From a virus, in IMG/VR virus record IMGVR_UViG_3300033064_002218, positions 1-24,689 of that record: a DNA stretch of 24,689 nt; one strand, given 5' to 3'. Position numbers and translations under genes: made by a program. Below the pieces are notes generated by a model, which saw only the letters and a list, made by a program, of their open reading frames with translations, had not been told where the DNA came from and did not search any database. How positions within the stretch are numbered: the stretch's first letter is position 1; each line of letters starts with the position of its first letter. Below, piece after piece: positions 8,688 to 24,689 of this stretch.

Positions 8688-8721
8688 AATGGGAAACAAA
8701 TGTGTTTCCCATTGTTTTTTT
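8688..8721 (+). terminator. Strong rho-independent terminator
   Basis: A perfect 11-pair stem AATGGGAAACA (8688-8698) / TGTTTCCCATT (8703-8713), four-base loop AATG, then GTTTTTTTA. It ends the second block and lies across an ATG at 8689 whose frame is open into uvsE, so that ATG cannot be the real uvsE start. Confidence 0.88.
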
Positions 8722-8760
8722 AATTATATTGTATCTCATATTATTCATCATAGGATTGTT

Positions 8761-9672
8761 ATGAATCTCGGCTATGCTTGTATCAATATGACGCTTGGTG
8801 TAAGTAAAATTACTACCAACCGGTCTATGATAAAGAAAACATTTCTCCAACGTGGTGTCAATTATGCCGCCGAGTTGGGAGTCCAAAACGTCAAGGACTT
8901 GGAAACCATCATCAAATGGAACGTAGAGAATGACATCAAATTGTTCCGTATCTCGTCAGATATGTTCCCATGGGCATCAGAATACGGTATTCAAAACCTC
9001 CCTAACATCACGGAAATTGCAGAGGTGATGAAACGTACTGGTGAGTATGCAAAATCCCATGGCGTTCGTTTAGGGTGTCATCCTGGTCCTTTTAACGTAC
9101 TCTGTTCGGCGAATAATAAGGTTGTTGAAAACACAATCAAAGACCTTGAACTTCACGGTAAAGTATTAGACCTTTTGGGATTAGAACGTTCTCCATACAA
9201 CAAAATTAATATCCATTGTAATGGTGTATATGGTGACAAGATTGCATCTATGGAACGTTTCTGTCAGAACTATGACAGATTGTCAGATTCCGTAAAAACT
9301 CGTCTTACAATTGAAAATGATGATCGAGCCAGTATGTATAGTGTCAAGGACTTGATGTATATACACGAACGTATTGGTATTCCAATTGTGTTTGATTATC
9401 ACCACCATAACTTTAACACAGGTGGTCTTTCTGAACAAGAAGCATTAGAACTTGCGATGTCAACATGGTCTGACAGCATTACTCCTGTTGTTCATTATTC
9501 ATCATCCAAATCAAAAGAAACGGGTAATCCAAAAGATAAACCACAAGCCCATGCGAACTATATTTTAGAAAAGATAGATAATTATGGTCATAACATTGAT
9601 GTTGTTTTAGAATGTAAAGCAAAAGAACTTGCTTTGCTTGAATATCGTAACACATTAGGGAACATACAATGA
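8761..9672 (+). CDS. uvsE: UV damage endonuclease UvsE/UVDE
   Basis: A 303-residue TIM-barrel repair nuclease that nicks DNA 5' to UV photoproducts. Motifs in order: MNLGYACINMTL at the start; FRISSDMFPW (62-71); LGCHPG with H107; INIHCNGVYGDK with H152; LTIENDD with E185; FDYHHHNF with D212 and H214-H216; VVHYSSS with H245; AHANYI with H264; DVVLECKAKELALL with E284. These correspond to the three-metal site of the family. In enzymes I remember, a lysine stands two residues before the histidine of the HxSS motif; here that position is V243. The start is ATG 8761 (AGGA six bases ahead), because the frame upstream runs through the terminator. The last bases overlap the next ATG (ATGA). It probably repairs phage DNA in sunlit water. 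Confidence 0.92.
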   Translation: MNLGYACINMTLGVSKITTNRSMIKKTFLQRGVNYAAELGVQNVKDLETIIKWNVENDIKLFRISSDMFPWASEYGIQNLPNITEIAEVMKRTGEYAKSHGVRLGCHPGPFNVLCSANNKVVENTIKDLELHGKVLDLLGLERSPYNKINIHCNGVYGDKIASMERFCQNYDRLSDSVKTRLTIENDDRASMYSVKDLMYIHERIGIPIVFDYHHHNFNTGGLSEQEALELAMSTWSDSITPVVHYSSSKSKETGNPKDKPQAHANYILEKIDNYGHNIDVVLECKAKELALLEYRNTLGNIQ

Positions 9673-11250: not shown

Positions 11251-11910
11251 ATGACAAATCTTTATGACGAAGAAGAAAAATTAGCATCACAAAATAAGAG
11301 TGTGAGCGAAAACAAAAATACAGATGATATACCAGTCAAGTGGAAAGAAGCTTTGTCTCAAATTGATTATGGTCTTGATATTGAGGCATCAACCATTTAT
11401 ATGTTTGGTGACATTGGAGATGGTACACTTTATGACTTTATATTAAGAGTTCGTGCCGTTTTACACATGCGGGATGACGAGAAGAAAAATGATCCAATTA
11501 ATATTATTATCAACTCCGATGGTGGTGATGTTTATGAGGCACTTGGTATGATTGATTATATTCAATCATTGGATATAAAAGTAAATACAATATGCCGTGG
11601 AAGAGCAATGTCAGCTGCCGCACTAGTACTGTGTTCAGGAACAGGTATTCGTGCTGTCTCAAAGAATAGTACGATCATGTTTCATGAAATCAGTTCTGGT
11701 ATTTATGGTAAGTCTTCCGATATGAAAGCAAATGTCCAACATACAGAAAAGTTGGAAGATATTCTTATCAATATTATTACAGCAAATTCAAAGAAAGATT
11801 CTAGTTTCTGGAAAGAAAGAATTTTAAAGGACTATTATCTTTCACCAGAAGAAGCGCTTGAATTGGGTGTAATTGATTTGATAATTCAACCTAAACTCAC
11901 GAGAGTATGA
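11251..11910 (+). CDS. ClpP-like serine peptidase
   Basis: A 219-residue crotonase-fold peptidase with an AAGGAG site nine bases before ATG 11251. The catalytic triad can be placed: S121 in GRAMSAAALVLCSG, H145 in STIMFHEISSGIYG and D194 in LKDYYLSPEEALELGVID. The spacings (24 and 49) are close to those of E. coli ClpP. Oxyanion-type glycines occur in INSDGGDVYEALGM. The first 45 residues are an acidic extension not found in ClpP. No ClpX/ClpA-like ATPase is encoded here, so it may act alone, pair with the host unfoldase, or serve as a phage maturation protease. The virion cluster begins only 2 kb downstream, but no capsid genes are visible to decide this. Confidence 0.85.
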   Translation: MTNLYDEEEKLASQNKSVSENKNTDDIPVKWKEALSQIDYGLDIEASTIYMFGDIGDGTLYDFILRVRAVLHMRDDEKKNDPINIIINSDGGDVYEALGMIDYIQSLDIKVNTICRGRAMSAAALVLCSGTGIRAVSKNSTIMFHEISSGIYGKSSDMKANVQHTEKLEDILINIITANSKKDSSFWKERILKDYYLSPEEALELGVIDLIIQPKLTRV

Positions 11911-14942: not shown

Positions 14943-16058
14943 TTGACACAATTTAATACCATACAAGATGATAAACCAAAAACTACTACGAGGGACAAAA
15001 AATCTCTTCAAGATACTCGTATTGATAATTTTGATGATCTTACTATTCCAGAAGAAGAACTAGTTGCTGCAACACCACCACAAAAATCTTCTGGAAAAAA
15101 TAATTCCAATAATAGAGGAAAAGAATATAAAACCCCAGAGATAGAAAAATCTATCGCAAAAGAAAAAGGTACAAGTTCTCCTGCCGGAGGCAAAACATCA
15201 ACTCAATTGACACAAGATCAAAAAAATAAAATTAATGCCATTAAAACACCACAAGAAACAAAAAGTTTTTTGCAAAAGGCAACAAATATACTTCGATTTG
15301 ATAAACACACACCATCTTATTTTGTAGATGCTCTCCCTATTATAGTCAATGCCCCGTATAATATAAACACACCAGAACGACTTGCTAATTTTATGGGTCA
15401 GTGTATGGCGGAATCCGGTCTCTTCCCCAAATCAGAAGGAATGGGATATACATCACAAAACATATTCGATAATTTTTTTAAAAGTATTGGTGGTAGTCGT
15501 AGACGAGCCAATGAGCTTGCATCAAAAGGTTCATCTAAATTAGGTGGATGGGCAGATGTTATTTATGGTGCAAAAAATGGAAACACGGTTGGAAAAATAT
15601 CACCGGCACTAGATGGTAACAAAGGTACCCCAGAAGGATATACTTATAGAGGACATGGGTTGATACAGAGTACTGGCAAGACTAAGTATCTTGGATTTGA
15701 TGAAAAATTTGCAGGATATGATGAATCCGGTGTATCAAAGGTAAAATCTCTAACAGGATTCGACGATGTTCGCCCAATTGTTAAAGGTTCTGATCCAAAA
15801 AATGATCCACCTGGTTCAAAACCAAGAATGGTAGAGGAAGGACACTTTACAATATTTCCAGATATAACTTCAAATCCAAAAGATCCAATATGGGCAGTGA
15901 TTACTTCATTGGAATATTTTAGAAAAAATAAAAAACTTTTGGTTAATAATGTTAGCCCAACAACTTCAAAACTATTAACAACACTAGTTCGTGGAATACC
16001 TGGTGGATACCAACTTAGACATAAATGGGCAAGCTATTTTTTTGATAAACTAAAATAA
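14943..16058 (+). CDS. GH19-family muralytic enzyme, tail-associated
   Basis: A 371-residue protein starting at TTG 14943 with GGAG eight bases upstream. Residues 1-110 are polar, Lys/Ser/Thr-rich and probably disordered. From about 113 there is a GH19 chitinase/lysozyme domain: TPERLANFMGQCMAESGLF with catalytic E157; a second acid region SEGMGYTSQNIFDNF (164-178); then YRGHGLIQSTGKTKYLGF (235-252), the family's G-x-G-L-I-Q-x-T-G signature. GH19 enzymes in phages hydrolyse peptidoglycan. Its place between the hub and the wedge genes suggests a virion-borne wall-opening enzyme used at DNA entry and replacing the lysozyme part of T4 gp5. A free endolysin is the alternative, but there is no separate promoter or holin beside it. 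Confidence 0.8.
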   Translation: MTQFNTIQDDKPKTTTRDKKSLQDTRIDNFDDLTIPEEELVAATPPQKSSGKNNSNNRGKEYKTPEIEKSIAKEKGTSSPAGGKTSTQLTQDQKNKINAIKTPQETKSFLQKATNILRFDKHTPSYFVDALPIIVNAPYNINTPERLANFMGQCMAESGLFPKSEGMGYTSQNIFDNFFKSIGGSRRRANELASKGSSKLGGWADVIYGAKNGNTVGKISPALDGNKGTPEGYTYRGHGLIQSTGKTKYLGFDEKFAGYDESGVSKVKSLTGFDDVRPIVKGSDPKNDPPGSKPRMVEEGHFTIFPDITSNPKDPIWAVITSLEYFRKNKKLLVNNVSPTTSKLLTTLVRGIPGGYQLRHKWASYFFDKLK

Positions 16059-16073
16059 CAAGGATTAAAGGTC

Positions 16074-16490
16074 ATGGATACAAAAAACTTTCTTAAAGAA
16101 ATTCGTTCTATTATTAGAGAAGAAATAGAGTACGCTTTAAAAAGACAACAGAATGAATCAACAAAAAAATCAACAAATGAAACTATACAACATGGTATGA
16201 AAATGTATGAGGAGGTACAAAAACCAATTTCAAAAAAGAAATCACAACCAAGTGGAAACTTTTCAAGCGTTCAAGATATATTGAATGAAACGAGAAGAAC
16301 TTTGGAAGAAAGTTCGTACACGGAAAACGAATTTAAATTTACATCCAATGATGTGAATGCATTCGCTCAACCACATAGTGCAATTCCATCTGGAATAAAC
16401 TCTTCTGATGTCGCACCCGAAGTTGTTAAAGCTTTGACAAGAGATTACTCCGCCCTAATGGCAAAAATTAATGAGAAAACAGGGAGTTAA
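16074..16490 (+). CDS. Small structural or assembly protein, unknown
   Basis: A 138-residue protein with AAAGG before ATG 16074. It begins with an amphipathic helix (MDTKNFLKEIRSIIREEIEYALKR is helix-like up to residue 24). A polar linker rich in Lys/Ser/Asn follows (EVQKPISKKKSQPSGN), then a segment SSVQDILNETRRTL and a C-terminal VVKALTRDYSALMAKI helix. It is likely a partly disordered helical adaptor. Position between the GH19 enzyme and gp25 suggests a tail or baseplate role; the family is not recognised. Confidence 0.55.
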   Translation: MDTKNFLKEIRSIIREEIEYALKRQQNESTKKSTNETIQHGMKMYEEVQKPISKKKSQPSGNFSSVQDILNETRRTLEESSYTENEFKFTSNDVNAFAQPHSAIPSGINSSDVAPEVVKALTRDYSALMAKINEKTGS

Positions 16491-16493
16491 TAA

Positions 16494-16994
16494 TTGGCTA
16501 TTTACAGAAGAAAAACAATCGTTATAAATGAACCTAGTTCATCAATAAACCCGTATACAAAACCAATAGGTGTAACTATACCATTTAATAACCCAAATGG
16601 TGTATTCTTTCAAAGTTACACAAATAGAGTTCAGGTTTTTTCAAATGTAAAAAATTTATTACTTACTGCCAAGGGTGAACGATATATGCAACCGGATTTT
16701 GGAACAGAATTACGGTTTATATTGTTTGAAAATATATCTAGTGAAGATGCTTTTGCGGAGCGTATTCGTGGTGAGATTATTTCCGCCATAAATACTTGGT
16801 TGCCGTATCTTAGTGTCAAAAATTTAGAAGTAAATTTGAATATGACATCCGACGGTCGAGTTGATAATCCAAATCATGCGGTAGGAGTTAAATTAGAATT
16901 ACAGATAGTTGGAACTAACATATATTTACCAATTCAGATATTTATATCAGATACAGGCAATTTGACCATTGACGAGGCAGTTTATAATGGCTGA
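16494..16994 (+). CDS. Baseplate wedge protein gp25-like
   Basis: A 166-residue protein starting at TTG 16494 with GGGAG eight bases upstream. The GPW/gp25 signature is clear: NVKNLLLTAKGERYMQPDFG (51-70), followed by TELRFILFE; the L-x-T-x-x-GER-x-x-x-x-x-x-FG pattern defines the family. The fold is a small alpha/beta domain at the sheath-baseplate junction, nucleating sheath assembly in T4 and in contractile injection systems. Length is somewhat longer than T4 gp25, with an extra N-terminal arm (residues 1-50). It overlaps the gp6-like gene by eight bases, the usual order in this module. Despite old naming, lysozyme activity is not expected. Confidence 0.9.
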   Translation: MAIYRRKTIVINEPSSSINPYTKPIGVTIPFNNPNGVFFQSYTNRVQVFSNVKNLLLTAKGERYMQPDFGTELRFILFENISSEDAFAERIRGEIISAINTWLPYLSVKNLEVNLNMTSDGRVDNPNHAVGVKLELQIVGTNIYLPIQIFISDTGNLTIDEAVYNG

Positions 16995-18882
16995 TTTAGT
17001 TAAAAAAGATATACGTTACCTTTCAAGGGACTTTCCATCATTAAAGCAAAATCTCATAGACTTTGCCAAGAACTACTTTCCAGACACATATCAAGATTTT
17101 AACGAATCATCTCCTGGTATGATGTTTTTGGAAATGGCCGCATATGTTGGAGATGTATTATCTTACTACACTGATGTTACTCTTCAAGAATCTTTGATAC
17201 TACAATCAACTGAGCGCCAAAATATTTTAAATATAGCCCAGTCACTTGGTTATAAACCAAAAACAAAAATAGCTTCAAATGTTAAGCTCGATGTATTTCA
17301 ATTAGTACCTGCCATCGGTAGTGGTACAAATAATGTACCAGATTATTCTTATTCATTTGCAATAGAAACAGGGATGGTCGTTGCTTCTGATAACAACAAT
17401 GTTACGTCTCAATTCAGAACCATTGATTATTTAGATTTCAAACATAGTAGTAGTATTGATCCAACAGAAGTTTCTGTTTTTGAATATAATACTTCAACAA
17501 AAGAACCAACATATTATCTTTTGAAGAAATCTGTAAATGCAGTTTCGGGTGTAGTTAAAAAGATCGAATATGATTTTGCCGATCCAAAACCTTATGATAA
17601 GGTCAATTTAGAAGATAACAATATAATTGATGTGCTTTATGCAATTGATTCTGATGCTAATAAATGGTATCATGTTCCATACCTTGCACAGGATACAATT
17701 TTTGAACCAACTGCAAATATTGCTAGAAATGATAGAGAACTTTCAACTCATAGGAATGAAACACCTTACTTGTTAAAGTTGAGAAAAATATCAAGACGAT
17801 TTATAACAAGACAAACTGCAAACGGTGTAATGGAAATACAATTTGGTGCAGGTGTATCAAACTTAGATGATGAATTACTAATCCCTAATCCAGATTTGGT
17901 AGGATCATCATTGACAGGAATAGAATCAGCTGCATCTTTGGACATAGATCCTTCAAACTTCTTATATACAAAAACATATGGACTTGCACCGAACAACACA
18001 ACATTAAATGTTTATTACACTGTTGGTGGTGGTATAAAAGATAACGTTCCAAGTGACACTATAAACAGAATTATTTCGAGAACAATTTTACTAGATGAAA
18101 CTGGTCTTAATAAAACCATATATAATCAGACAATTGGTAGTTTGGCCATAACAAACCCAGAACCCGCAACGGGTGGTAAAGAAGGTGAAGAGATAAATGA
18201 AATTCGTCAGAATGCACTTGCATACTTTGCTTCACAAAATCGTGCTGTAACAAAAGAGGACTATATAATCCGTGCTTACAGTTTACCGCAAAAATATGGT
18301 TCTATTGCAAAAGCATATATAACGAAAGATGACCAATTAACAAGAGAATCTATATACAATAGTGATCGTATTTCAAATCCATTGGCCTTGAATTTTTATG
18401 TTCTTGGATACGATGCTGACGGTAAGCTAACAAGAATAAATGATGCTACAAAAGATAACTTAAAGACATATCTTGGGTATCATAGAATGCTTACAGATGC
18501 AATCAACATTAAAGATGCTTACATTATAAACATAGGAATTGAATTTGATATTATATCAATGCCAGATCAAAACGGAAATCAAGTCATTCTTCGTTGTATT
18601 GATAGATTGAAGAAATACTTTGATATCAAAAAATGGCAGATTAATCAACCTATTGTGATTAGTAATGTATATACAGAACTTGACAAAGTGGAGGGTGTTC
18701 AAACTGTTGTTGATGTAAAGTTTACAAATCAAACAGACCCATCACTTGGTTATTCTTCAAACGCATACAATTTACAACAGGCAACAAAAGATGGGATAAT
18801 ATTCCCATCTCTTGACCCATCTGTTTTTGAAATAAAGTATTATGACAATGACATAATTGGTAGAGTGAGGGCTTTCGGATGA
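16987..18882 (+). CDS. Baseplate wedge protein gp6-like (baseplate J family)
   Basis: A 631-residue protein from ATG 16987. The N-terminal pattern DIRYLSRDFPSLKQNLIDFA, then DFNESSPGMMFLEMAAYVGD and SYYTDVTLQESLILQST, is the well-known start of T4 gp6 homologues in aquatic phages. The baseplate J-like part is in the second half, with QNRAVTKEDYIIRAYSLP (about 416-433), where N-R-A-V-T-x-x-D-Y is characteristic. The length is close to that of T4 gp6. In T4 two gp6 copies per wedge form the inner iris of the baseplate that opens on contraction. The start in the frame could extend six codons upstream to 16969, but ATG 16987 gives the conserved MADLVKKDIRYLS start. It overlaps the next gene by four bases (ATGA). 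Confidence 0.9.
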   Translation: MADLVKKDIRYLSRDFPSLKQNLIDFAKNYFPDTYQDFNESSPGMMFLEMAAYVGDVLSYYTDVTLQESLILQSTERQNILNIAQSLGYKPKTKIASNVKLDVFQLVPAIGSGTNNVPDYSYSFAIETGMVVASDNNNVTSQFRTIDYLDFKHSSSIDPTEVSVFEYNTSTKEPTYYLLKKSVNAVSGVVKKIEYDFADPKPYDKVNLEDNNIIDVLYAIDSDANKWYHVPYLAQDTIFEPTANIARNDRELSTHRNETPYLLKLRKISRRFITRQTANGVMEIQFGAGVSNLDDELLIPNPDLVGSSLTGIESAASLDIDPSNFLYTKTYGLAPNNTTLNVYYTVGGGIKDNVPSDTINRIISRTILLDETGLNKTIYNQTIGSLAITNPEPATGGKEGEEINEIRQNALAYFASQNRAVTKEDYIIRAYSLPQKYGSIAKAYITKDDQLTRESIYNSDRISNPLALNFYVLGYDADGKLTRINDATKDNLKTYLGYHRMLTDAINIKDAYIINIGIEFDIISMPDQNGNQVILRCIDRLKKYFDIKKWQINQPIVISNVYTELDKVEGVQTVVDVKFTNQTDPSLGYSSNAYNLQQATKDGIIFPSLDPSVFEIKYYDNDIIGRVRAFG

Positions 18883-20051
18883 TATACACTATATATGCTC
18901 AAAAAGATGCTACGATCTATGAAAGAACGGAATCCTTAAATACGGGTTTTGATCAAATTTTAGAACTTTCACATCAACTAGTTGGTACTTCATCAAAGTA
19001 CAATAGTAGAATACTTATAAAGTTTAACACTTCTGATATAGAAGCGAGAGTAAATTCTGGAAAAATAAAGTCAGGAAGTGCAAGTTATTATCTGTCTCTT
19101 AGAGCCGCCGAGGTAAAAGAAATACCACAAGAATACGAGGTGTATGCGTTTCCTTTAAGTTCATCATGGATTAACGGATCGGGTAGATATTACAATGATC
19201 CAATAACGACGGATGGTGCATCATGGAAATTTAGAACTTCAAAATCAGTAGGGACGGAATGGAATGTACCCCCAGTGACATCTAGTTTTGAATGGGACGA
19301 AGTTTCTGATTTGTGGGTTGATGCTAATGCTCTTTTTGGTGTAAATTTGTCCGCAGATGTTACATCATCATATCTTTCAGCTGACGGTGGTGGTACTTGG
19401 TGGACGTTTGCTGGTTCAGAATGCACGCAATCTTTTTCTTTTGAATCTGCCGACATCTATATGAACGTAACTTCAATTGTTAAAAAATGGATAACTGGTT
19501 CTGGTAGATTTGATAACGATGGTTTTATTTTAAAGTTTGATGATGAAACTGAACAATCAAATGAAACAGTTCATTCGCTTAAATTTTTTGGAACTGATAG
19601 TAATACTATATATGTTCCAAGATTACACGCAATATGGGATGATTCTGTTTTTATAACAGGAAGTTTAACACAAATAAGTGATGAGAATCTTGTTGTAAAT
19701 GTAAAACTAAAAAAATATTATTCACAAGATGAACAAGCAAAAATACGTGTTGTTGCGAATACAAGATATCCACAAAAAACATACACAACACAATCATACT
19801 ATACTAAAAATTATTACCTACCAACATCTTCTTATTATGAAATAAGAGATGCACACACGGATGAAATTGTATTGCCTTTTAACACAACCGGTTCAAAACT
19901 AAGTTGTGACTCGACTGGTAATTATTTCAATCTTTGGATGAGCTCATTCCAACCTGAACGATTTTATCGCGTAGTGGTAAAAACAGAAACATCGGGTGGT
20001 GATACAGTTCAGATGTTTGATAACAATTATTACTTCAAGGTAATCAGATGA
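18879..20051 (+). CDS. Tail structural protein with DNRLRE-like domain
   Basis: A 390-residue, beta-rich protein. The first half resembles the DNRLRE/disaggregatase-type beta-sandwich: DATIYERTESLNTGFDQIL, then SRILIKFNTSDI, SYYLSLRAAE, VYAFPLSSSWINGSGRYYND and a late VTSIVKKWITGSGR. In that domain class the D-A-T-I-Y start, the L-I-K-F strand and the W-x-x-G motif recur. The rest carries Thr/Tyr/Ser-rich strands (NTRYPQKTYTTQSYYTKNYY) as in tail-fibre or baseplate-attached proteins. It follows gp6 by four-base overlap and probably sits on the wedge periphery or as a short fibre. Carbohydrate contact is possible; no catalytic site is visible. The C-terminal part has no recognised relative. 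Confidence 0.55.
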   Translation: MIYTIYAQKDATIYERTESLNTGFDQILELSHQLVGTSSKYNSRILIKFNTSDIEARVNSGKIKSGSASYYLSLRAAEVKEIPQEYEVYAFPLSSSWINGSGRYYNDPITTDGASWKFRTSKSVGTEWNVPPVTSSFEWDEVSDLWVDANALFGVNLSADVTSSYLSADGGGTWWTFAGSECTQSFSFESADIYMNVTSIVKKWITGSGRFDNDGFILKFDDETEQSNETVHSLKFFGTDSNTIYVPRLHAIWDDSVFITGSLTQISDENLVVNVKLKKYYSQDEQAKIRVVANTRYPQKTYTTQSYYTKNYYLPTSSYYEIRDAHTDEIVLPFNTTGSKLSCDSTGNYFNLWMSSFQPERFYRVVVKTETSGGDTVQMFDNNYYFKVIR

Positions 20052-21229
20052 TCAACTTAGTTGAGTTTCTTTTTCTTGAAGATATAGACCCATCACAGGC
20101 GGAGTCAATATTAGAAACGTATGAAAACATAACGTTTGATACGGTTCAAAAATTTTATGACTTTTTTAAATCACACTCGGTTGTTTTAAGAAAAGTATCT
20201 AAGAATGCAGCCGGAGCAACATTACTGGAAAGATTGAAATCATTTAAGCAATCTTATGAATACGATGTTGTCAGGAATTACATAGAAGAACAAAATAAAA
20301 TTAAAAAGTTATTGTCAACTAATTCGTCTGATATTACAGTTATTCAAAATACATTGGAAAGTGTATCTCGGTATAATCTGGACACTTTTGATTATTACAT
20401 TGTTAGAAAATTAATAGATCAAACTGGTTCTTCAAATGGAGTTTTACCATCGGATGAATTAAAAACACTTCTTGAGTCTTTAATAGAAAGAAAAAATGCG
20501 GTAACTATAAACGAAGAGGGTTCCATAAACTTTGATAAAAATCTGAGAGACGAGTCTGAAAGGGCAATAACATTTCAAAACATGTATAAGAACTCTGGTA
20601 GATATAGAATTCCTGTGTTAGATGAAAGATTTTACTTTAAGGATTTTGATTACGTTGTTAATAGAAATTTTGAATCACTTCCAGAAGCATCATCGGCCGA
20701 AGTAAATCTTTTAACAAAACTTGCAAATGTTACAGATATTGATGCATTTTTAACAGATCTAACAAAGATTACAATAGAAAATGAAAACTCTATTACAGGT
20801 CTAAATGTAAAGATTCAACGACTTGAAGACATTATAGAAATAAAACAACAAGAAGTTAAATCTTATGTTGATGCACAGATAGAAAACGAGGCATTTATTG
20901 ATAGTATCGCTTTTGATAATTTGAAGAAAGACGATGAAATTATACAGAAAGATGAGTCAATCAACCAATTGAATGAAACTATTACAACTACATTATCTGA
21001 ACTTGAATCAAATGTTGCAAATCAAATCAATAATATAAATGCGGCACAAAATGCAGAAATTACTGCATTGAAGTCACAAATAGCGGCACTACAATCAACA
21101 ATTACATCGTTAAGGGCATCTAAACCACCCCTGTTACCGAACGTTACTATAACAACAACCCCAGTACCAACATTTGGTGGTCCCAATCCAGCAAACGTAG
21201 GAACCCCAACCTTGGGCGGCAACATATAA
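20048..21229 (+). CDS. Coiled-coil tail or baseplate structural protein
   Basis: A 393-residue protein overlapping the previous stop by four bases. Residues 1-230 are helical globular (LVEFLFLEDIDPSQAESILE, ending near DERFYFKDFDYVVNRNF). Residues 235-350 form a long coiled coil with heptad-like spacing (ITGLNVKIQRLEDIIEIKQQ, LNETITTTLSELESNVANQI, ALKSQIAALQSTITSL). The end is a Pro/Gly/Thr-rich tail (PPLLPNVTITTTPVPTFGGP). The shape suggests a trimeric fibre stalk or connector joined to the wedge. The family is not recognised; the role is inferred from position between baseplate genes and the giant tail protein. Confidence 0.6.
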   Translation: MINLVEFLFLEDIDPSQAESILETYENITFDTVQKFYDFFKSHSVVLRKVSKNAAGATLLERLKSFKQSYEYDVVRNYIEEQNKIKKLLSTNSSDITVIQNTLESVSRYNLDTFDYYIVRKLIDQTGSSNGVLPSDELKTLLESLIERKNAVTINEEGSINFDKNLRDESERAITFQNMYKNSGRYRIPVLDERFYFKDFDYVVNRNFESLPEASSAEVNLLTKLANVTDIDAFLTDLTKITIENENSITGLNVKIQRLEDIIEIKQQEVKSYVDAQIENEAFIDSIAFDNLKKDDEIIQKDESINQLNETITTTLSELESNVANQINNINAAQNAEITALKSQIAALQSTITSLRASKPPLLPNVTITTTPVPTFGGPNPANVGTPTLGGNI

Positions 21230-21230
21230 T

Positions 21231-24200
21231 ATGGCAAACTTTGAATACAAAAATATTGATGATATTTTAAACACCAATCTTCCGATTAGAGGTGTTAGAC
21301 GGTCATTGGATGATTTAAAACTTTTAAAAAAAACACCACCACTTGTACCTGCAATAGACAAACAAACTGGTGTTGTAGAATTCCATACGTTTTTACCTAA
21401 TGGTGCATATCTTAGTTCTTTATATAATACAGATACTTGGAGATTGGAAGATCCACTACCAGGTTCATCTGTTCCTGTTATATCACTTGATTTACACAAA
21501 GATTTTAAGAATAGTGAAAATCCAGCAGGAACATATAAAGTAGTTTACAATTTTTTTAAAAACATAATTGGTGCACACGATGCTCCAAAAATGTTTATAT
21601 CTAAAATATCATCTGATAGAACAGAATTAGAATTAACTCTTATAAACAGAACACCACAAGAAGATCAAAAAATTCTTGCTGATTTTGTTCTTTCATACTT
21701 AAAGGCAAAAGAGATACTACCAAATGTAGTTATCAATTTTGGTGAAAATAAAATTATAGATGTAATAAACTTAATCTCAGATGGTAGTAGATTTAGTTTT
21801 TTCATAAAATTGTATGAAGGTCTTCCAGCCGATCTAGATTTGTATTTTGAATGTTGGATTCAAGAACAATTATTTAAACCATTCATAGACACGATACAAC
21901 ACGTACCAGAAGAAATAAGAACAGAACTACCTACTCTTAAAGGACCAAACTTTGAAGTAGATTATGATTATTGGACATCGGGTGAAACTGAGTATAAATC
22001 ATGGAACGAAATACTTTCTTCAAATGTACAGACATCACAGGAAATACTTGATCGATATATTTCATCAAGTAATTCGCCGGTACAATTAAATGTAAATTAC
22101 AGAGAATTTGAAAACTTTATATTTTATTCTTCAGCCGAGGAAAGGGTAGATAATTTTGTTTATAAAGTTGAATTGGTTGAGTCGTATAGCAATCAGTTAG
22201 CATTGTTAAATACATTTACTGGTTCTATCTCATCAAACAAGATTAAAATTACTTCTTTGCGTGATAAAGCTATAAGTGGGTTTGATAACTTTGAAAAATG
22301 GTTATATTACGAAACAACTGCTAGTAATTATTATACATCACAGGCGACTGCATCAATTACACCATACCCTAAATATTTGGTAACTGGTAGTAATTATACT
22401 ATTGCAACGAAAGAAGGAAAATCTAATTTATATCCAAGTAGTTCTTTGGAAGTTACCACTTGGTACAATGATCTTATTACAAAGTCAATAAATTATGATT
22501 TAAAAAATTACAATTCACTTAACAAGGCAATACCTGAACATTTGAGAGATAGTGGAGATAACGAACAATTTACAACATTCGTTAACATGATAGGTCAACA
22601 CTTTGACATCATGTATCTCTACACCGATCACATTCTTAAAAAGAACTTACGAGAAGAGCACCCAAAAGATGGTTTATCACAAGATCTTATTTATGAAGCA
22701 ACACGAAATCTCGGATGGACACTATCCCACGGAACACAGGCAAAAGATCTTTGGGAATATGCATTTGGTATAAGTGGAAGTGGTGATCCTATTTGGACAG
22801 GAAAAACAACCACAAATAAATATCTTACTAAATCATATGAAGAAAGAACGAAAGAAGTTTGGAGAAGAATTTTTAACAATCTCCCTTACATATATAAAAC
22901 AAAGGGAACTGCTCGTGGTGTAAAAGCTCTTCTTGCTGCGTATGGTATTCCACAAACTCTTTTAACGATACGTGAATTTGGTGGACCAGATAATGCTGAT
23001 TTGGGTTTAATTCCAAGAGCAGAATGGGAAAAGCACACCCACTATTTAAATTTTAAAGGGTCATACCCGGTTCCACCAACACAAAGTTATATATCTGTAC
23101 CATGGCAAAGGGTAAATGACGCAACAGGTTCATTTAAATATCCAGATGCCATTTCTTTCCGTTGGAAAATGGAACCAGACGAAACTTATAGCTATGGATC
23201 AGATCCACATCAAACACTTTTACAAAAGAATTCGGGTTCTCGTGTTGACTGGTTCGTTACTGTAAATAAGAATGGTACTGATGTAGAAAAGGGAAGTGTT
23301 ACTTTTTATATTGGTGACGGAACAACATATAAATCTGCATCTATTACAGATGAGTTTATGTATGATGATGTTCCTCTCAATATATTATTGAGAAGAAGTG
23401 CTGATAGTGATTTAACTTCTACAAATCAGACATATGAACTTACACTTAAAACTTCAAAGTATGGAAAGATTGCAGTTGAACGTTCTGCTAGTGTTAGTAT
23501 TAATGGTGGAACTGAGCCAAATAAAAATAGAGCATGGGTTTCTAGTGGTACACTTTTTATTGGGTCTGGTTCAAACCCACAAACGAGTAATATACTATCT
23601 GGTTCAGTATTTGAATTAAGATATTGGTCAAATATTTTAAGTACAAGTTCATTTAACAACCACGTACTTGCACCAAGATCTTACAATGGTAATACTGAAA
23701 CTTCATCATTCTATGATTTACAGGCACAATTTAAGTTCTGGCAAAAGTTTAATGTTGCGGTAACAACAAGTATATCAAGTTCCCATCCAAATCAAAATCA
23801 AACAAGATTTGAAATCTCACCAAAACTTGCAACATTTAATGGATTTACTTCCGAATCTTTTGAATCAATAACAGAAACTTACAATATGGAAGTTGCTACA
23901 TTGGCAAACAACACACCATATGCAGAAAAAGTTAGAATAGATTCTGGTTCATTGATTGGCTCTTTGAGTAAAGATAGAAGTGCAGAAGTATCTGCATTTG
24001 ACACATACTCAAATGACTCGGATAAATTGATGATTGCGTTCTCACCACAGGACGTAATAAATGAAGACATCTATGAGAGTTTGGGATATGTTCAGCTTGA
24101 TGATTATATTGGTGAGTATGGGAATATTAAGAAAGATCAGTATCCAAACTTGAAATGGTTGGCAAGAGATTATTGGAAAAAATATGCAAATAAGAATGAT

Positions 24201-24689
24201 TTTACTGCTTACTTAAAACTCATATCTGTTTTTGATTTTAGTGTATTTGACCAAATACGTCAAACACTACCGGCGAGAAGTAATCCAATATTGGGTGTTG
24301 TCATTCAACCCAATGTTCTTGAAAGATCAAAAGTCGGTGGTATAGGTAGAAACATAAATGGAAATCCAAATAACAGCATACCTTTAAATGAATTGTCTGC
24401 ACCCGTCAATGTTTTTGCAACATATGGTGTAAAAGAAAGTACAATATTAATTGGATTTGATGGTGAAGGTGAAGTGGATGATATTCAAGGTGAATATGAT
24501 TTGGATAAAGAAATCTTACCATCCACACACAACGTCTCTCTTACAAAATCATTACCAGTTGCAAGATCCCTTAAAGTGGACTACACAGTGAAAGAAAGTT
24601 TACTACAACACGAACTTTCAAAAAAATTGATTAAAGTAGACTACACCGTAAAAGAAAGTTTACTACAACACGAACTTTCAAAAAAATTG
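21231..24689 (+). CDS. Very large tail/baseplate structural protein with LamG-like domain (3' end missing)
   Basis: The frame is open from ATG 21231 to the last base (1153 codons, no stop), so the gene continues beyond the window. The ATG follows one base after the previous stop. Seen parts: an N-terminal globular part; at residues about 460-575 a conserved wedge/tail-protein segment with FVNMIGQHFDIMYLYTDH, RNLGWTLSHGTQAKDLW and LPYIYKTKGTARGVKALL, then AYGIP and IREFGGP. A concanavalin/LamG-like beta-sandwich follows at about 610-800 (DAISFRWKMEPDE, then SGTLFIGSG and FELRYWSNIL). A further structural part contains SVFDFSVFDQIRQTLPAR, and the end is a 20-residue tandem repeat. The KTKGTARG-x-x-ALL-x-x-YGIP motif recurs in large tail proteins of T4-like and flavobacterial phages, to my recollection. 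A gp7-like wedge role is possible. Confidence 0.7.
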   Translation, partial: MANFEYKNIDDILNTNLPIRGVRRSLDDLKLLKKTPPLVPAIDKQTGVVEFHTFLPNGAYLSSLYNTDTWRLEDPLPGSSVPVISLDLHKDFKNSENPAGTYKVVYNFFKNIIGAHDAPKMFISKISSDRTELELTLINRTPQEDQKILADFVLSYLKAKEILPNVVINFGENKIIDVINLISDGSRFSFFIKLYEGLPADLDLYFECWIQEQLFKPFIDTIQHVPEEIRTELPTLKGPNFEVDYDYWTSGETEYKSWNEILSSNVQTSQEILDRYISSSNSPVQLNVNYREFENFIFYSSAEERVDNFVYKVELVESYSNQLALLNTFTGSISSNKIKITSLRDKAISGFDNFEKWLYYETTASNYYTSQATASITPYPKYLVTGSNYTIATKEGKSNLYPSSSLEVTTWYNDLITKSINYDLKNYNSLNKAIPEHLRDSGDNEQFTTFVNMIGQHFDIMYLYTDHILKKNLREEHPKDGLSQDLIYEATRNLGWTLSHGTQAKDLWEYAFGISGSGDPIWTGKTTTNKYLTKSYEERTKEVWRRIFNNLPYIYKTKGTARGVKALLAAYGIPQTLLTIREFGGPDNADLGLIPRAEWEKHTHYLNFKGSYPVPPTQSYISVPWQRVNDATGSFKYPDAISFRWKMEPDETYSYGSDPHQTLLQKNSGSRVDWFVTVNKNGTDVEKGSVTFYIGDGTTYKSASITDEFMYDDVPLNILLRRSADSDLTSTNQTYELTLKTSKYGKIAVERSASVSINGGTEPNKNRAWVSSGTLFIGSGSNPQTSNILSGSVFELRYWSNILSTSSFNNHVLAPRSYNGNTETSSFYDLQAQFKFWQKFNVAVTTSISSSHPNQNQTRFEISPKLATFNGFTSESFESITETYNMEVATLANNTPYAEKVRIDSGSLIGSLSKDRSAEVSAFDTYSNDSDKLMIAFSPQDVINEDIYESLGYVQLDDYIGEYGNIKKDQYPNLKWLARDYWKKYANKNDFTAYLKLISVFDFSVFDQIRQTLPARSNPILGVVIQPNVLERSKVGGIGRNINGNPNNSIPLNELSAPVNVFATYGVKESTILIGFDGEGEVDDIQGEYDLDKEILPSTHNVSLTKSLPVARSLKVDYTVKESLLQHELSKKLIKVDYTVKESLLQHELSKKL
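24570..24689 (+). repeat. 60-bp tandem repeat in the last gene, two copies to the window edge
   Basis: Unit 1 is 24570-24629 and unit 2 is 24630-24689. They differ at four bases, three of them silent, and the last 39 bases are identical. Each unit encodes KVDYTVKESLLQHELSKKL preceded by Leu (unit 1) or Ile (unit 2). The window stops exactly at the end of unit 2, so more copies may follow and an assembly break at the repeat is plausible. Confidence 0.9.

Follow-up and report, generated by a model that had tools for sequence, protein, structure and literature searches.

The window analysed here, the whole of IMG/VR record IMGVR_UViG_3300033064_002218 (24,689 bp, classed linear), ends in two repeat units with which a longer in-frame array probably begins; they lie in the gene for a large baseplate-region protein of a contractile-tailed phage. 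As the window is the complete linear record, its right edge is the contig end. The array site is shared by relatives, where the number of units changes in steps of 18 to 20 codons.

Two near-identical repeat units at the contig end

The last 119 bases of the window consist of two head-to-tail, in-frame 60-bp units (Table 1). Tandem Repeats Finder reports 24571-24689 with a period of 60, 2.0 copies, 94% matches, and a score of 217, the strongest tandem repeat in the window, with the next best of the 15 rows scoring 52. When aligned, the two units agree at 56 of 59 positions (95% DNA identity), the three differences, at unit positions 8, 17, and 20 (GTG/GTA, ACA/ACC, and GTG/GTA), all being synonymous changes at third codon positions, and the last 39 bases show no mismatch. 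When the sequence is compared with itself at in-frame lags, the best 48-nt identity reaches 0.96, and 20 codon shuffles give no value above 0.62, which places the in-frame, head-to-tail arrangement beyond chance.

The first-pass annotation had described two 20-residue units, nearly identical in DNA and with a uniform 39-base end, and the unit alignment bears this out. Its span of 24570-24689 needs a small correction, as the repeat starts at 24571 (24570 only in the register of the sister contig described below), and unit 2 lacks its last base. Recent duplication or gene conversion, also proposed there, is supported by the 95% DNA identity and the exclusively synonymous differences. Two relatives also have recently duplicated units at this site, L060 (internal units 82% and 86% identical in DNA to their neighbors) and L013 (best 48-nt window 94%), which further supports recent duplication.

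Table 1. Positions of the repeat units, the gene that carries them, and neighboring baseplate genes in the window.
Feature	Position	Strand	Description
gp25-like baseplate wedge gene	16494..16994	+	PF04965, phrog_261
gp6-like baseplate wedge gene	16969..18882	+	phrog_219
Open-ended array-bearing gene	21231..24689	+	at least 1153 aa
Predicted laminin-G/pentraxin-like jelly-roll domain	23030..23887	+	residues about 601-886; structure model, Foldseek, VIA-align
Conserved head segment directly before the array	23901..24566	+	77-82% identical to the three nearest relatives over 223 alignment columns
Repeat unit 1	24571..24630	+	60 bp; encodes (K)VDYTVKESLLQHELSKKL(I)
Repeat unit 2	24631..24689	+	59 of its 60 bp present, cut by the contig end; 3 synonymous differences from unit 1

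The array-bearing gene and its baseplate context

The reading frame that carries the units is still open at the end of the record. The full-length gene in the three nearest relatives encodes 1366, 1406, and 1442 aa, and the gene in the window is probably missing about 213-289 aa. If the window resembles these relatives, the missing part would hold some 3-7 more units and a C-terminal domain.

The gene comes after the gp25-like gene (PF04965 at 35.1 bits versus a cut-off of 27.2) and the gp6-like gene (phrog_219, E 3.7e-19), which together mark a contractile-tail baseplate block of the T4 type. The earlier label "tail protein" was right in kind, given the position in this block and the predicted laminin-G/lectin-like domain. 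Two other genes of the window are of note. The gene at 8689-9672 encodes a UvdE-type UV-damage endonuclease (Pfam PF03851, E 3.5e-66; phrog_8420), possibly a phage-carried DNA repair gene. At 11251-11910, next to the T4-like baseplate block, there is a head maturation protease with the ClpP fold (PF00574, phrog_94) in place of the gp21 type of T4.

The array-bearing protein family has no name in the libraries searched, PHROGs and Pfam. At E 0.001 the window protein matches nothing in PHROGs or Pfam, and even at 0.1 it matches no PHROG and no PDB sequence; a search for named families among 20 members returned sub-threshold matches only. Phage_RBD_prop, Collagen_bind, and phrog_28678 were considered as names and set aside because of their sub-threshold scores. 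The literature search, which covered parts of the published texts, returned nothing on this family.

The structure model of the window protein, built with 20 sequences, has a mean pLDDT of 52 and is good in parts only, the array region lying below 50. We therefore interpreted only residues about 601-886, where the model is good in most of the region. Here VIA-align gives a Z score of 15.4 with 7ufg_B (rmsd 3.8, 207 aligned residues), and many laminin-G, pentraxin, and neurexin chains are matched as well by VIA-align and Foldseek, so that the region is predicted to fold into a laminin-G/pentraxin-like jelly roll. Domains of the laminin-G, pentraxin, and neurexin types often bind carbohydrate or protein; a shared jelly-roll fold does not itself show a function. 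An AlphaFold2 model of the C-terminal part of the relative L006, including its array (12 sequences), had a mean pLDDT of 29 and was discarded.

Near relatives carry arrays of differing length

The array site is crossed by three contigs, L051 (also L058), L059, and L060, which share about 79-81% protein identity with the window in this gene. Segmented by hand, their arrays hold about 5, 7, and 9 units, respectively, mostly of 19 aa (57 bp), and behind each array follows a conserved C-terminal domain of about 155 aa (segment 153-157 aa) which is absent from the window's gene. The array segments measure 98, 135, and 173 aa, in steps of about two units, and the array is the sole gene segment that changes length among the relatives compared. 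The other segments are constant (N-terminal 600, lectin 290, head 224, and C-terminal 153-157 aa), where the N-terminal and lectin segments are fixed cuts by residue number and the constant head length shows that the register is kept.

The array is also the most divergent segment in all six pairs compared: its identities are 0.38-0.71, those of the three preceding segments 0.80-0.96, and those of the C-terminal domain 0.65-0.90. Between L059 and L060, the end units correspond by eye on both sides and internal units make up the difference. Tandem Repeats Finder detects 3.2 copies of 57 bp in the L060 array. The units of L051 are divergent (best 48-nt identity 0.65).

The window unit KVDYTVKESLLQHELSKKL matches unit 3 of L051 at 11 of 19 residues, a value reached by none of 2000 shuffles of the L051 array; its matches to units 1, 2, and 4 are 7, 6, and 4 of 19. 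BLASTP, unprompted, aligns window unit 2 with the same unit 3. The unit profile built from the relatives scores the window units below 3 bits (0 found), so homology rests on the shared site and on L051.

The prediction that a longer array continues past the edge is thus supported by about 5, 7, and 9 units followed by the C-terminal domain in all three near relatives. Copy number was likewise expected to vary, and the counts in related genomes, from about 5 to 9 or more at the same site, agree with a variable array. That the window's own array would be both long and near-identical is an extrapolation, since most units of the relatives differ widely from one another.

Two contigs end within the same repeat

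A sister contig, L009 (IMGVR_UViG_3300017784_004852, 9315 bp), aligns to window positions 15353-24665 with 71 mismatches in 9316 columns (99.2% identity over 9.3 kb), and with this number of mismatches it is not the same sequence as the window. It breaks off part-way through unit 2, and the window runs on for 24 bp more. Two differences between window and sister contig fall in the last 765 bp, one of them exactly at the unit junction (A at window 24630 versus C at L009 9220, encoding I in the window and L in L009).

The exact stop on a unit boundary had been offered as evidence of an assembly break; we rejected this argument, because where a tandem unit is taken to begin is a matter of choice and the sister contig ends mid-unit. 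The break itself is supported by the sister contig: two differing sequences end no more than 24 bp apart, both inside a repeat, which suggests a systematic cause (near-identical units or mixed variants), and most likely the repeat array broke the assembly. A short-read assembler would have stopped where it could not resolve near-identical units or mixed copy numbers. Should L009 and the window share a sample or project of origin, the two breaks would be less independent. Overall, the longer array, its variable copy number among relatives, and the assembly break stand from the first-pass annotation, and the unit-boundary argument falls.

Searches for the other side of the break covered viral contigs and cellular genomes. 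A degenerate pattern for VDYTVKESLLQHE matched only L009 across the viral contigs. Profile searches there gave 15 loci with the C-terminal domain and 3 loci with the C-terminal domain of L051 as query, none of them beginning inside an array; no contig of the viral collections starts in the array, and the window's own continuation was not found among them. The head-segment profile gave 8 loci, of which only L009's contig ends in the array. The bacterial and archaeal genome collection held no relative of the C-terminal domain.

The main competing explanation is that the array here stops after unit 2, having arisen by a single recent duplication, and gives way to degenerate units or unique sequence, with the contig ending through strain variation or low coverage. 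The window indeed contains no more than two units, the homologous units of L051 (0.65) are too divergent to stop any assembler, and the base difference between window and sister contig at the unit-2 junction is a sign of strain variation. We nevertheless consider a two-unit array unlikely, since all three near relatives have at least 5 units before the C-terminal domain and two would make the shortest array known here; degenerate units past unit 2, moreover, would still be an array.

The array in the wider family

The wider set comprises 28 genes, from the viral collections and Microcystis phage Mel-JY01. Left out were same-contig repeats (L002, L003, L004, and L011), near-copies (L019, L028, L029, L030, L036, L039, L049, and L050), the fragment L022, the distant loci L007, L053, and L054, and L059 and L060, which were fetched later. 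In 26 of the 28 genes, excluding for lengths L027 (frame cut short upstream) and L008 (end motif not found), the part before the LPAR motif measures 1010-1044 aa, and the stretch from LPAR to the C-terminal GYG motif ranges from 176 to 446 aa.

The unit profile finds 60 units in 29 C-terminal parts, a count which is partly built in, as the 28 seed units come from the same arrays searched; of the controls, 29 N-terminal parts contain none and 140 shuffled sequences contain 4. L052 has 13 profile units, L006 has 7, L013, L014, and L048 have 6 each, L005 and L010 have 4 each, and L012, L015, L017, and L051 have 2-3, with 0-1 in the other 17 relatives. In L012, L015, and L017, where the profile gives no more than 2-3 units, arrays can be made out by eye. 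More distant relatives carry arrays of 18-aa units at the same place, with at least 13 units in L052, and Tandem Repeats Finder reports arrays of period 54 in L013 and L052. The longest array, L052 5069-5683, has at least 13 units of about 18 aa and contains a 108-bp higher-order repeat, a two-unit duplication. At the same gene site in another lineage, L017 5850-5963 shows a recent one-unit duplication of 57 bp (best 48-nt identity 0.92).

Units resemble each other more within arrays (mean identities 0.30-0.47) than between lineages (0.20-0.27), the excess being clearest in L013 and L052 and hardly present in L048. L005 and L010 are a close pair, and between them each unit is most similar to its positional counterpart (0.72-0.83 versus 0.36). 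Within-array likeness together with this positional match suggests that units multiply within a lineage and afterwards keep their places for some time, and the sequences are consistent with a turnover by occasional duplication rather than constant exchange. Slippage or unequal recombination between near-identical copies would add or remove units, which would then diverge.

Spacer or surface

The array may act as a spacer or shaft of beta-strand-like units, which would set the distance between the lectin-bearing, baseplate-anchored part of the protein and its C-terminal domain. A triple beta-spiral, the trimeric fibre shaft built of short beta repeats, was considered as a possible form. It might instead be a surface for host contact or for escape from defence, where diversity rather than length is selected, a reading suited to the fastest-evolving segment of the gene and to its position near the lectin-like domain. 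Such a role seems doubtful to us because the length changes by whole units, the conserved core (V-x-Y-x-x-K-x-S) looks structural, and relaxed constraint on a spacer also yields fast divergence. We give hardly any credence to a third reading, in which unit 2 at the extreme contig end would be one unit walked twice by the assembler, an error of a kind that happens at contig ends; it was rejected because all three differences between units 1 and 2 are present also in L009, showing that unit 2 is no artefact, and because relatives carry true arrays at the site.

Comparison with known systems

The IMG/VR relatives (L051, L059, and L060; L006, L010, L013, L014, L017, L048, and L052) have in-frame units at the same site of the same gene, with the unit core hydrophobic-x-Y-x-x-K-x-S and a C-terminal domain behind the array. 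They differ in unit length (18 or 19 aa versus 20 aa in the window), and most of their neighboring units are less similar to each other than are the two in the window.

The nearest match among phage records is the hypothetical protein WWT39511.1 of Mel-JY01, 53% identical over 95% of the query, whose gene order after a "tail lysozyme" gene is shared with the window. It differs in having no profile units at 3 bits or more, with about three degenerate units seen by eye. The other five matched phage records, four of Flavobacterium phages and one of an uncultured phage, lie near 28-29% identity.

Collagen-like repeats are Gly-X-Y triplets. One study reports that such repeats separate distinct domains of the receptor-binding protein in the antireceptors of Streptococcus thermophilus phages (PMC5601072). 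The likeness lies in repeats placed between domains of a phage protein, whereas triplets there stand against 18-20-aa units here, and the phages are different. VrlC, which is reported to take the place of T4 Gp7 in pelagimyophages and cyanomyophages (PMC7029224), is comparable by description as a baseplate protein of T4-like phages with unusual baseplates; the window's protein has no PHROG match at E 0.1.

Implications

The array accounts for two contigs of one phage stopping at the same place, and it points out a place at which short-read assembly may get a phage structural gene wrong. Variation in repeat number is already familiar from phage tail proteins, and the present family is a further case, a baseplate-region protein varying in whole repeat units with surroundings of fixed length. 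A more far-reaching proposal, which we regard as rather improbable, is that the array is a length-tunable, self-homogenising spacer, in which units would be gained, lost, and overwritten fast enough for strains in one water body to differ in copy number, altering the reach of the C-terminal domain and hence adsorption.
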